Shown piece by piece: positions 29,259-33,007 of a stretch of DNA of 64,000 nucleotides. Under the pieces are notes generated by a model. That model did no database searches, was not told where the DNA came from, and was given only the letters and a program-made list of their open reading frames with translations. The stretch is taken from NCBI GenBank assembly GCA_030650845.1, contig JAUSDC010000209.1:1-64000 (forward strand). The letters are read 5' to 3'. The position numbers and the translations under genes are program-made. Origin of the DNA: Candidatus Methanoperedens sp. GTDB lineage: Archaea; Halobacteriota; Methanosarcinia; Methanosarcinales; Methanoperedenaceae. Position 1 is the first letter of the stretch. The number at the start of each line of letters is the position of its first letter.

Positions 29259-29280
29259 CTCATATACCATTAATTCAGTA

Positions 29281-29310
29281 TTTTCTGATTAATCAGAAAA
29301 GTATAAATAT
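29281..29310 (+). promoter_or_regulatory. arsM operon promoter with a 20-bp perfect palindrome
   Basis: 29281-29300 is a perfect 20-bp palindrome with half-site TTTTCTGATT. Directly next to it is the TATA box TATAAATAT (29302-29310). The AbrB gene begins at 29339, about 29 bases after the box, so the transcript is probably leaderless. A protein bound to the palindrome would cover the BRE and block TFB, so repression is likely. The adjacent AbrB protein or an ArsR-type sensor are candidates. Confidence 0.65.
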
Positions 29311-29338
29311 TCTAAACGTCATTACTGAATGACCAACA

Positions 29339-29617
29339 ATGACACGAAAAGATGAGAACAAATCCTGCTGCACAGCATCTGAACTGGGCTGCTGCAAAGT
29401 AGAATCAGTAATAAGCGTTGATGAGAGGGGGCAGATGGTGCTTCCAAAGGAAATAAGGGATAAAGCGAATATCCGTCCAGGGGATAAACTGGCTGTGATA
29501 AGTATGGAAAAAGACGGAGCTGTTTGCTGCATATCCCTGATTAAAGTCGAGAAACTCGAAGAGATCGTTAAGGGAATGCTCGGACCTGTGATGAAGGACA
29601 TTCTTGAGAAAAAGTAA
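29339..29617 (+). CDS. AbrB/SpoVT-type regulator with Cys-rich N-terminus (HgcC-like)
   Basis: A 92-residue protein. The N-terminal 20 residues hold two cysteine pairs (KSCCTAS, GCCKVES), followed by a swapped-hairpin AbrB domain (VISVDERGQMVLPKEIRDKANIRPGDKL) and another cysteine pair (VCCIS). Such Cys-rich AbrB proteins occur next to arsenic and mercury methylation genes. The paired cysteines could sense arsenite. It is 12 bases before arsM, in one transcript, and likely regulates it. Confidence 0.8.
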   Translation: MTRKDENKSCCTASELGCCKVESVISVDERGQMVLPKEIRDKANIRPGDKLAVISMEKDGAVCCISLIKVEKLEEIVKGMLGPVMKDILEKK

Positions 29618-29629
29618 AGGAGGGATAAG

Positions 29630-30457
29630 ATGAAACATAGTGATATTAAGAAAGTAGTTCGTGAAGGCTACGGCAAAATCGCAAAAACTAATAGCTCGTG
29701 TTGTGCCCCCACGTCATCATGCTGCGGAGGGAGCAGTGCGGATGATACAGGCAGGAAGATAGGATACACTGATGAAGAACTCTCTTCCGTGCCAGAAGGC
29801 GCAAACCTCGGTCTTGGATGCGGAAATCCGGTGGCGGTTGCATCACTGAAGAAAGGTGAGACGGTCATGGATCTGGGCTCGGGTCCTGGATTTGATTGTT
29901 TCCTTGCTGCAAATAAAGTCGGAAAGAGCGGGAAAGTCATAGGCATTGACATGACTCCAGAGATGCTTGACAGAGCAAGGGAGAACGCACGAAAAGGCAA
30001 TTATGAGAACGTGGAGTTCAGGCTCGGGGAGATAGAGAACCTGCCTGTAGCTGATAATTCTGTGGACGTCATCATTTCTAACTGTGTTATCAATCTCGCG
30101 CCAGATAAAAAGCGTGTTTTCGAAGAGGCATACAGGGTGCTAAGACCCGGAGGCAGGATCATGGTCTCTGATATGGTACTGATAAAAGAGCTTCCCGATG
30201 TCATAAAAAATTCTGTGGAAGCTTATATAGGCTGCCTTTCCGGCGCAATAAAGAAGGATGAATATCTTGAGGCAATAAAGAATGCAGGTTTCAGGGATGT
30301 AAAAATTTCTGACGAAGTTATTTTTCCAATAGAGTTGATAACGAACGACCCAACAGCAAGTGCGCTCATAGAGAATTTCAATATGTCGCAGGATGTGTTG
30401 AAAGATGTCGCAGAATCGATAGTCAGCATAAAAGTGCACGGAATTAAGAAAACTTAA
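29630..30457 (+). CDS. arsM: Arsenite S-adenosylmethionine methyltransferase ArsM
   Basis: A 275-residue methyltransferase of the ArsM family, which methylates As(III). Cysteine pairs C24-C25 (SSCCAPTSSCCGG region), the SAM motif VMDLGSGPGFDCFLAA near 80 and ISNCVINLAPDK near 145 give the conserved arsenite cysteines. A strong GGAGGG precedes the ATG. It follows the AbrB gene and probably serves arsenic detoxification. Confidence 0.9.
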   Translation: MKHSDIKKVVREGYGKIAKTNSSCCAPTSSCCGGSSADDTGRKIGYTDEELSSVPEGANLGLGCGNPVAVASLKKGETVMDLGSGPGFDCFLAANKVGKSGKVIGIDMTPEMLDRARENARKGNYENVEFRLGEIENLPVADNSVDVIISNCVINLAPDKKRVFEEAYRVLRPGGRIMVSDMVLIKELPDVIKNSVEAYIGCLSGAIKKDEYLEAIKNAGFRDVKISDEVIFPIELITNDPTASALIENFNMSQDVLKDVAESIVSIKVHGIKKT

Positions 30458-30541: not shown

Positions 30542-30793
30542 ATGACCACAGTCGAACTCTACTATTCAGATACATGCCACAACTGCCACCAGCTCAGGGC
30601 TCTCATAATGGAGCTCCTCCCGAAAACCATGAAATTCAAAGAAATAAACATCTCCTATCCAGAAGGGAAGCAGCGAGCATCGGAACTGGGCATTATGTCT
30701 GTCCCCACCGTCGCTATTGACGGGGAGGTCGTGCTCGTGGGACGTGTATCAAGAGAGGAACTTTTAAGAGAGATCGCGTCGCGTAAGGGCTGA
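30542..30793 (+). CDS. Small thioredoxin/glutaredoxin-like protein
   Basis: An 83-residue thioredoxin-fold protein with redox motif CHNC at residues 12-15 and the cis-proline in MSVPTVAIDG near 55. Methanogen proteins of this type act as thiol-disulfide carriers. It is encoded two bases before sepCysS, so a role in delivering sulfur or reducing the SepCysS cysteines is an attractive but unproven idea. Confidence 0.82.
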   Translation: MTTVELYYSDTCHNCHQLRALIMELLPKTMKFKEINISYPEGKQRASELGIMSVPTVAIDGEVVLVGRVSREELLREIASRKG

Positions 30794-30795
30794 GC

Positions 30796-31983
30796 ATGGA
30801 CACTAATAAATACAAGAACATCACTCGCGGCGTTTCAGATACATATGTGAACGTGCATCCCATTCAGCGCGGCGGCGTGCTGACAGCAGAAGCAAGAAAA
30901 GCCCTGCTTGAGTTCGGGGATGGTTATTCTGTTTGCGATTACTGCTTTGAATCAAGGGTTGACCTGGTAGAAAATCCCCCTGTCCATGACCTGACCCAGG
31001 ACATTGCAGAGTTCCTGAACATGGACGACGTGCGGTTCACAGCCGGATGCCGACATGCAAAATGGGCTGCCATGCACATGGTATGCGAGCCAGGCGATAC
31101 AGTTGTCCTTGATGCGCTAGCTCATTACACTTCATATCTTGCAGCAGAAGCGAATAGGCTTAACGTGGTCGAAGTGCCGCACAACGGCTACCCCACATTT
31201 GAGATAGACATCGAAGGATATGCCAGGAAATTCGAGGAAGTAGAGAAAAAAACTGGAAAACTTCCGTCTATGGCAGTTCTTACGCATGTGGATTACAGGT
31301 ACGGCAATGTGGCTGATGCTGAAAAAGTAGGGCGCATCTGCAAGGAATACGGCGTCCCTTTCCTGTTAAATACAGCATATTCATCTGGTATAATGCCTGT
31401 TGATGGCAAAAAATTACATGTTGATTTCCTGTGCGGCTCAGGTCACAAGAGCTGGGCTGCATCAGCTCCAATGGGGATACTTGCGACCACATTCGAATGG
31501 ACCAACAAGGTTTTTAATAAATCAACTGTTCGCGGCGACTGGAGCGGCAGGGGATTCACGAAAAAAGAAGTCGCTCTTTTTGGCTGCTCACCAGTATTCG
31601 GAGCGCCTGTAGCCACGCTCATGGCATCGTTCCCTGCTGTCGTAGAACGGGTAAAACACTGGGACGAAGAAGTGAAAAAAGCCCAGTATTTCATAGGTGA
31701 GCTTGAGAAGATCGAAGGCTTCCATCAGATGGGAGTCAAACCAAAGCAGCATACGCTCATGAATTTTGAAAGCCTCGCGCTGCATGAAATTGCTGAAAAA
31801 GATAAGCGCAGGGGTTATTTCCTGTACCATGAATTGAAGAAGCGCAAGATCGTTGGGCTTCATCCAGGAATGAGCAAGAATTTCAAGATAAATACATACG
31901 GTCTTAAAATGGAACAGATAAAATATGTGGCTGATGCTTTCAAGGATATAGCTCGCATCAATGGAATAAAAGTTGAAGATTAG
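30796..31983 (+). CDS. pscS: O-phospho-L-seryl-tRNA:Cys-tRNA synthase SepCysS
   Basis: A 395-residue PLP enzyme that converts Sep-tRNA(Cys) to Cys-tRNA(Cys) with a sulfur donor. The PLP lysine is K218 in CGSGHKSW. The cysteines needed for sulfur transfer are in place: C47 and C50 (VCDYC) plus C264 (LFGCSP) as the likely third. Its presence means the cell uses the SepRS route for Cys-tRNA. It lies in a tight run between the thioredoxin-like gene and a DUF169 gene. Confidence 0.93.
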   Translation: MDTNKYKNITRGVSDTYVNVHPIQRGGVLTAEARKALLEFGDGYSVCDYCFESRVDLVENPPVHDLTQDIAEFLNMDDVRFTAGCRHAKWAAMHMVCEPGDTVVLDALAHYTSYLAAEANRLNVVEVPHNGYPTFEIDIEGYARKFEEVEKKTGKLPSMAVLTHVDYRYGNVADAEKVGRICKEYGVPFLLNTAYSSGIMPVDGKKLHVDFLCGSGHKSWAASAPMGILATTFEWTNKVFNKSTVRGDWSGRGFTKKEVALFGCSPVFGAPVATLMASFPAVVERVKHWDEEVKKAQYFIGELEKIEGFHQMGVKPKQHTLMNFESLALHEIAEKDKRRGYFLYHELKKRKIVGLHPGMSKNFKINTYGLKMEQIKYVADAFKDIARINGIKVED

Positions 31984-31993
31984 AGGATCCACA

Positions 31994-33007
31994 ATGAAAT
32001 ATTCAGAAAACTCCGACAAATTCAGGAAATTTTTCGAACTGCCTTCATCGCCTGTAGCAGTGAGAATACTCATAGACAGCTCCGAACAAAAAACAACCAC
32101 AAAACCCATGCGTTTCTGTGAAATGGTAAGAAAAAGTGCAATGTACGGTGAAAGCTTTGTTTTTGGCGTTGAGGAATTGACATGCACAAGCGGAGAGCTG
32201 GCATTGGGATTTACTGAACCTTCATATGGGGATGTATATCCTAGGATAAAACCAGCCAATACAAAACTTGTAAGTGTTTCCCCGCTTGAGAAGACAGAAA
32301 AAAAACCCGATGTGGTAGTGATTGTCGGCACGCCAAGAAAACTTATGAGAGTCTCAACCATCCTTGCTCAACTGCATGAAAAACAGCCAGTAGAAGCTAA
32401 ATTCAAAGGCGAGTTCGCGGTGTGCGGTGAGTGTACCGCTATCCCATACATGGAAAAAAAGGTTAACCTGTCTCTTCTTTGCAACGGCGCTCGAATGTTC
32501 TCAGGATACAGGGACGATGAGATGGTCATGGGATTCCCGTTTGACGATTTTATCCGTATTTCAGAAAGCACAGAGGAAAAAGAGATCACAAATGCGCTTT
32601 GCGGCTGCATAATGGATGATATCCCTGCGGGCGCGGTTGCGGCGATCGAAAAGATTGGTTTTGGTAAAGGCACTGACCAGTTCTTCGGAAGGTTCGGTGA
32701 AGAGATAATACGGCTCTATACTCCAAAAAGCAGTGATGGTAAGATCACATCCCTTACTCTACACGTTCCAGTTAAATTCAAGGACAGCGAGACTGCAGCT
32801 GAAATAAATGAAAAGGCACGAGAGTTCCTTCAGTCGCCTGTTCTTCACAGGGCTCGCGACAACTGGATCGATATAGCGATCCCTCTTGAGCTTGGAGAGA
32901 GTCTTAACAGAGCATGTATGCGAGGCGAGAAATTCGATGCGATCATCAAAGGTGGCATTGATACTATTTTAAAAGAAGTTGAGAAAGTTAAGCGAAAATC
33001 TGGTTAA
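31994..33007 (+). CDS. DUF169 protein
   Basis: A 337-residue member of DUF169, a family of unknown function common in methanogens and anaerobes. The start at 31994 has AGAGGAT seven bases upstream. Cysteines occur in conserved-looking segments (RFCEMV near 44, LTCTSGELALGF near 70, AVCGECTAIPYME near 148, LCNGAR, ALCGCIMD), suggesting a metal or cofactor site. The gene is ten bases after sepCysS and probably co-transcribed. No function should be assumed. Confidence 0.78.
   Translation: MKYSENSDKFRKFFELPSSPVAVRILIDSSEQKTTTKPMRFCEMVRKSAMYGESFVFGVEELTCTSGELALGFTEPSYGDVYPRIKPANTKLVSVSPLEKTEKKPDVVVIVGTPRKLMRVSTILAQLHEKQPVEAKFKGEFAVCGECTAIPYMEKKVNLSLLCNGARMFSGYRDDEMVMGFPFDDFIRISESTEEKEITNALCGCIMDDIPAGAVAAIEKIGFGKGTDQFFGRFGEEIIRLYTPKSSDGKITSLTLHVPVKFKDSETAAEINEKAREFLQSPVLHRARDNWIDIAIPLELGESLNRACMRGEKFDAIIKGGIDTILKEVEKVKRKSG

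Follow-up and report, generated by a model that had tools for sequence, protein, structure and literature searches.

A 9-bp-phased TCWGA array at hgcC promoters: a candidate operator for arsenic and mercury methylation genes in Archaea and Bacteria

When a long perfect palindrome lies against the TATA box of an arsenite methyltransferase operon, is it the operator, and which protein would read it? The question is raised by the arsM operon of the window, by which we mean the whole 64,000-nucleotide stretch of Candidatus Methanoperedens DNA analysed here. An earlier note on this DNA had described a perfect 20-bp palindrome ending one base short of a TATA box, with an AbrB-type gene and then arsM downstream, and each of these elements is in place (Table 1): TTTTCTGATTAATCAGAAAA, with arms TTTTCTGATT and AATCAGAAAA and no spacer, is followed by a G at 29301 and then by the TATA box TATAAATA at 29302-29309. 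No other perfect palindrome of at least 16 bp was found in the window, and chance would yield a mean of 0.03 perfect palindromes of at least 20 bp per 64-kb first-order Markov sequence, or 0.0007 of the same class per 100 bp of sequence of local composition. A search for a second copy of the 20-mer, allowing up to three mismatches, returned nothing elsewhere in the 3.4-Mb genome.

Table 1. Features of the hgcC-arsM promoter region and operon, in window coordinates.
Feature	Position	Strand	Remark
Palindrome	29281..29300	.	Spans boxes 2 and 3 with AT-rich flanks
Box 1, TCAGT (4/5 match to TCWGA)	29275..29279	+	Register reads TCAG- in most archaeal arsM relatives
Box 2, TCTGA	29284..29288	+	
Box 3, TCAGA	29293..29297	+	Purine-rich AAAAG next, in a BRE-like position
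Register 4, the TATA box, TATAAATAT	29302..29310	+	
Register 5, degenerate box TCTAA	29311..29315	+	TCTGA/TCAGA in most relatives
hgcC, regulator gene, 92 aa, HgcC family (NF040962), AbrB/SpoVT-MazE fold	29339..29617	+	Proposed array binder
Codons of Cys63-Cys64	29525..29530	+	Conserved Cys-Cys pair, proposed part of a metal(loid) site
arsM, arsenite methyltransferase (NF008823)	29630..30457	+	12 bp behind hgcC; presumed regulated

The first gene encodes a member of the HgcC family, to which we return below. Regions upstream of HgcC genes were gathered from genome contigs and by a phylum-wide search, leaving 133 after removal of redundancy. On inspection the palindrome was not general among them: its exact sequence occurs otherwise only at L033, a close relative, and perfect palindromes of at least 20 bp are present in 4 of the 133 regions. 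What recurs is TTCTGA/TCAGAA elements. TCWGA itself is counted 312 times in the set, where dinucleotide shuffles give 68.9 +/- 7.9, and the boxes are separated by 9 bp (90 pairs), 18 bp (61), 27 bp (43), 36 bp (10) or 45 bp (9), with at most 4 pairs at any other distance; in the shuffles, distances of 9, 18 and 27 reach 2 at most. Comparable phasing was not seen with other self-complementary 5-mers in the same 133 regions, and an array with an 8-bp period (3-base spacer), taken as a spacing control, was met at four places in 394 genomes, none of them an HgcC locus. The periodicity also emerges when the boxes are ignored altogether. Comparing sequence identity lag by lag, 9, 18, 27 and 36 are the top-ranked lags for arsM in both the archaeal and the bacterial group; for archaeal hgcA they are among the five highest.

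The conserved unit is the TCWGA box, repeated in tandem at strict 9-bp steps, and not the palindrome, which is the most symmetrical stretch of a longer 9-bp-phased array running from 29275 to 29315. Of the 90 neighbouring pairs of boxes, 47 are inverted, 34 direct and 9 everted, so that symmetry of the pair is dispensable; and since TCWGA is its own reverse complement, neighbouring boxes centred on T and on A automatically form a palindrome. With its exact sequence shared by L033 only and its inverted arrangement found in 47 of the 90 pairs, the palindrome loses the role of functional unit that the earlier note had given it; an element upstream of orthologous operons does exist, as a 9-bp TCWGA array and not as a 20-bp palindrome. 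One might still hold the palindrome to be an operator by itself, or an inverted repeat that arose by chance, without relation to anything conserved, its exact form being confined to the window genome and L033; we give this next to no credence, as its two boxes match the conserved array register by register in scores of relatives. As sole explanation it is refuted by the conserved 9-bp array and, as described below, by the linkage to HgcC and by the Dehalococcoidia hold-out.

Do these boxes mark a wider regulon? In the window genome the three-box pattern, allowing one mismatch, occurs at four other places, with no convincing second site among them: the matches on contigs C227 and C229 fall within coding sequence or abut it, and those on C167 and C220 are intergenic with no evident TATA box. 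The same genome carries three near-identical TNTGAATTTTCTGATNNTTCAAA sites (C167:12815, C167:13732 and C220:9328), at least two of them intergenic without an evident TATA, which are possibly a small repeated element. In eight HgcC genomes that contain a perfect three-box array, it is the sole perfect site and lies at the HgcC promoter; these genomes were picked for carrying a perfect site, and it is only the absence of a second one that is informative. Twenty genomes without HgcC gave four scattered matches to the three-box pattern, in three of the genomes.

The placement of the array differs between the two domains of life. In Archaea the consensus reads TCAGwwwwT-TCTGATTwT-TCAGAAAAG-TTTAAATAT-TCwGAA, with a TATA-like element that begins exactly at +27 from box 1, the fourth register, in 47 of the 67 arrays scored, and with boxes that go on downstream of TATA. 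In Bacteria, TTGACA (-35) is found just upstream in nearly all cases, and the boxes lie over the -10/start region in a phase that is not fixed; at the bacterial loci L083 (TATCAGTGTATTCTGATTTATCAGAATACACTGATA) and L093 the array takes the form of long palindromes. This would make the array a rare operator common to archaeal TATA/BRE and bacterial -35/-10 promoters. In the window, the proposal that the site is positioned to block TBP and TFB still holds, now for the array as candidate operator, since it overlaps the core promoter. To be sure, an array upstream of TATA could also recruit TFB, HgcC then acting as an activator, and AbrB-fold proteins include the chromatin-like Sso7c4 (PDB 2l66/5itj; PMC5222340), which brings to mind an architectural protein setting promoter shape. 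Yet boxes past TATA in Archaea and over the -10/start in Bacteria fit occlusion better, and we regard an activating or architectural role as unlikely; our choice of repression over activation is read from the position of the array. The hgcC start codon of the window is located about 30 bp 3' of the TATA box, and therefore the transcript leader is presumably very short. An outer inverted repeat, ATTCAGTA/TACTGAAT (window 29273-29280 and 29323-29330), flanks the array and the TATA box; its downstream arm is also present in L032 and L033.

Which protein, then, would bind such boxes? The product of hgcC belongs to NCBIfam NF040962 (HgcAB-associated protein HgcC), with 123.9 bits for a cut-off of 70 (124 bits in the genome search), and it also matches the AbrB domain TIGR01439 (44 bits, cut-off 28.3) and PF04014 (Pfam MazE_antitoxin, 35.7 bits, cut-off 24.7). 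An ArsR winged-helix domain (PF01022) was sought in this first gene, with no match. A profile of 41 relatives matches SpoVT and archaeal AbrB structures (hmmsearch, SpoVT 8.6e-5), and the AlphaFold (AF2) model, a monomer built with 41 sequences, has a confident core, with blocks between residues 21 and 70 scoring about 90 pLDDT, and a tail (residues 1-17) that is disordered. All top Foldseek matches of this model are SpoVT/AbrB, with a probability of about 1 and E-values (0.01-0.1) that are weak, as one expects when a domain is this small. By its sequence signature and its predicted fold, the window HgcC is a member of the AbrB/SpoVT swapped-hairpin superfamily. The family has the conserved thiolate ligands looked for in a metal(loid)-responsive repressor: among 143 aligned members, residue 63 is Cys in 130 and residue 64 in 140, and at least two Cys are found in the 18 residues ahead of the core in 115 of the 118 members linked to arsM or hgcA. 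The Cys-rich AbrB-type product of the first gene, which the earlier note suggested could bind its own promoter, remains the best candidate binder. Arsenite sensing is plausible in view of the conserved cysteines; the effector need not be arsenite, however, because in other archaea hgcAB stands behind this same regulator and array. An HgcC subfamily (f9, L169-L191) has K in place of R before GQ; its genes adjoin neither arsM nor hgcA within the stretch read, and their upstream regions show degenerate, weaker boxes (TNAGAAAAT) still tending to 9-bp steps.

Array presence follows HgcC, not the target gene. Arrays are found upstream of HgcC genes in Methanoperedens, Methanothrix and other archaea, and also in records whose labels name about a dozen bacterial phyla. 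The pair of array and HgcC heads arsM; in other archaea, further Methanoperedens among them, it heads hgcAB instead. When hgcA and arsM were searched independently of HgcC, 1.1 kb of upstream sequence being taken and an array being called at a score of at least 57, the array was present at 23 of 26 hgcA loci with HgcC and at none of 34 without it (the latter include L213 and L214, where hgcA comes further down rows with arsM); for arsM the corresponding figures are 15 of 18 and 1 of 52. Pooled, this amounts to 38 of 44 loci with HgcC, the other 6 being below threshold, against 1 of 86 without, with a Fisher p of 2.6e-25 that overstates independence, since the loci are related. The lone array scored as without HgcC, L342, has a divergent HgcC gene (G396) lying 5' of arsM. 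As a natural control, in Methanoperedens genome G012 hgcA stands behind an ArsR gene (PF01022, 49.5 bits) and the array is absent there, while the hgcC-arsM operon of the same genome has it. Dehalococcoidia served as a hold-out, with the motif fixed beforehand: the array is present in 26 of 30 HgcC upstream regions, and in 22 of the 25 that were new to the analysis, for a rate of 0.001 in shuffled sequence; arsM is the next gene in 28 of the 30. We infer the binding of HgcC to the array, and this gives some room to a different trans-encoded factor, for example ArsR/SmtB, with HgcC as passenger or co-regulator, the more so as ArsR regulates hgcAB in Pseudodesulfovibrio mercurii ND132, according to a citation in PMC10349881. 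But the array is missing without HgcC and where ArsR is the adjacent regulator, it stays with HgcC even in the divergent arrangement of L342, and its occurrence in two domains only beside HgcC would demand an unseen factor of identical distribution, which makes such a factor improbable.

The genes that HgcC would control vary. Behind HgcC comes arsM in nearly all relatives of the first set and hgcA in Methanomicrobia-type genomes; several Methanoperedens relatives have HgcC-HgcA-HgcB in a row (HgcA and HgcB confirmed with curated models), and one locus (L045:5001-7532) has HgcC-ArsM-HgcA-HgcB in one row, so that arsenic and mercury methylation apparently share one operon behind one array. At L213 and L214 a nitroreductase-like gene is inserted between ArsM and HgcA. 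Two more arrangements were seen: a 221-aa UbiE/ArsM-like methyltransferase between HgcC and HgcA, in the place that arsM has in others (L041:541-1206), and a tandem of two HgcC copies, both with an array of their own, where one copy heads arsM and the other hgcAB (L035:3223-5273), homology of the arsM-heading copy to the query stopping at residue 53. In total hgcA is present in 10 of the 31 Candidatus Methanoperedens genomes searched (L035, L039, L041, L045 and L054 among the loci), with hgcB confirmed in two, and we found no report of mercury-methylation genes in Methanoperedens in the open-access literature. The window genome has no hgcA, only a CdhD-level match to HgcA (E 1.3e-9, 30%); the neighbour of its hgcC is arsM and not the hgcAB implied by NF040962, and the name HgcC suits the family, not the window locus.

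In a further reading, HgcC would be an antitoxin partnered with a toxin, and the array a classical operator of toxin-antitoxin type (Zhang et al., 2023, PMC10349881), in keeping with the Pfam domain name MazE_antitoxin and with the COG/KEGG labels PrlF/AbrB in that paper. We find it very improbable. The annotated window neighbours of hgcC (arsM, a thioredoxin-like gene, SepCysS, a HIT protein and a 153-aa protein without family) include no toxin family, an adjacent toxin after the fashion of MazEF or PrlF-YhaV is not there, the gene paired with hgcC in the various phyla is arsM or hgcA, and the best structural relatives are SpoVT/AbrB regulators. After arsM, window positions 30542-33007 hold the thioredoxin-like gene, the Sep-tRNA:Cys-tRNA synthase (SepCysS) gene and a DUF169 gene; of the loci read, L034 is the one that retains the order HgcC-ArsM-Trx-SepCysS.

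We consider it quite probable that HgcC, once bound to the array, covers the core promoter and so represses the operon to which it belongs, and that a thiol-reactive metal(loid) relieves this repression. The hgcC-arsM pair would be an autoregulated operon with the palindrome as part of its operator, made of TCWGA boxes, each a small dyad, placed every 9 bp through the core promoter; the TATA box would take the fourth register of this 9-bp grid in Archaea, and in Bacteria the array would sit on the -10/start behind the TTGACA -35. HgcC, presumably a small dimeric DNA-binding protein of AbrB/SpoVT type, would occupy the array and exclude TBP/TFB or sigma-RNA polymerase, so that hgcC and arsM (hgcAB in other genomes) stay silent. 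A step of 9 bp falls short of a full helical turn, so adjacent dimers would not be on one face of the DNA. A thiol-reactive metal(loid) bound to the conserved cysteines of the N-terminal tail and the Cys-Cys pair would then free HgcC, and arsM or hgcAB would be made. What we observe is a periodic array that is placed on promoters of two unrelated types and linked to HgcC, together with conserved cysteines; from these observations we infer binding, repression and a ligand that may be As(III), Hg(II) or another thiophile. A broader proposal, towards which we lean slightly, is that HgcC and the 9-bp TCWGA array form a portable regulator-operator cassette, a type of metalloregulator distinct from ArsR, controlling the biological methylation both of arsenic (arsM) and of mercury (hgcAB), its operator grammar the same in Archaea and in Bacteria although their core promoters are unrelated. 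If true, arsenic and mercury methylation would be tied to one sensor family.

Part of this was already known, namely a regulator gene near hgcAB; we found in the open-access literature no description of an operator, be it for HgcC or for the regulator of McDaniel et al. (2020), nor any of an AbrB-arsM operon. For the control of hgcAB, the methylmercury genes, in archaea, the open-access literature offers a gene that is either unnamed or likened to toxin-antitoxin systems, but no binding site. McDaniel et al. (2020, PMC7438021) found that in 112 genomes hgcAB is preceded by a putative regulator without a name. It resembles HgcC in being conserved, small and directly upstream of hgcAB, and is mentioned beside arsM/ArsR links; its family is not named in the text, and promoter and operator are not analysed there. 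For HgcC, the 'HgcAB-associated protein' of NCBIfam, Zhang et al. (2023, PMC10349881) proposed regulation of toxin-antitoxin type. It is the same family, with a small AbrB-type gene directly upstream of a metal-methylation gene; in the window, by contrast, the partner is arsM and hgcA is absent from the genome, and the paper neither describes an operator nor gives the arsM link as the main association. With AbrB/SpoVT and MazE swapped-hairpin regulators, HgcC shares fold and signature (TIGR01439, PF04014; PDB 2w1t, 1yfb, 5itj). The mycobacterial MazE6 operator was dropped as a parallel, MazE6 being a ribbon-helix-helix protein. To our knowledge, a Cys-Cys pair in the core is no part of the AbrB/SpoVT and MazE family definitions, and we know of no 9-bp TCWGA array for these regulators. 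Finally, ArsR/SmtB operons, including the ArsR-hgcAB operon of P. mercurii ND132, likewise have a small Cys-bearing repressor as first gene and an operator on the promoter, although HgcC is not an ArsR homologue and the 9-bp TCWGA array is absent at the ArsR-hgcA locus L221. By analogy, the mechanism proposed for HgcC would work like ArsR autorepression, and with a defined regulator and operator, the swap within one genus between HgcC with array and ArsR without it makes the control of hgcAB directly testable.
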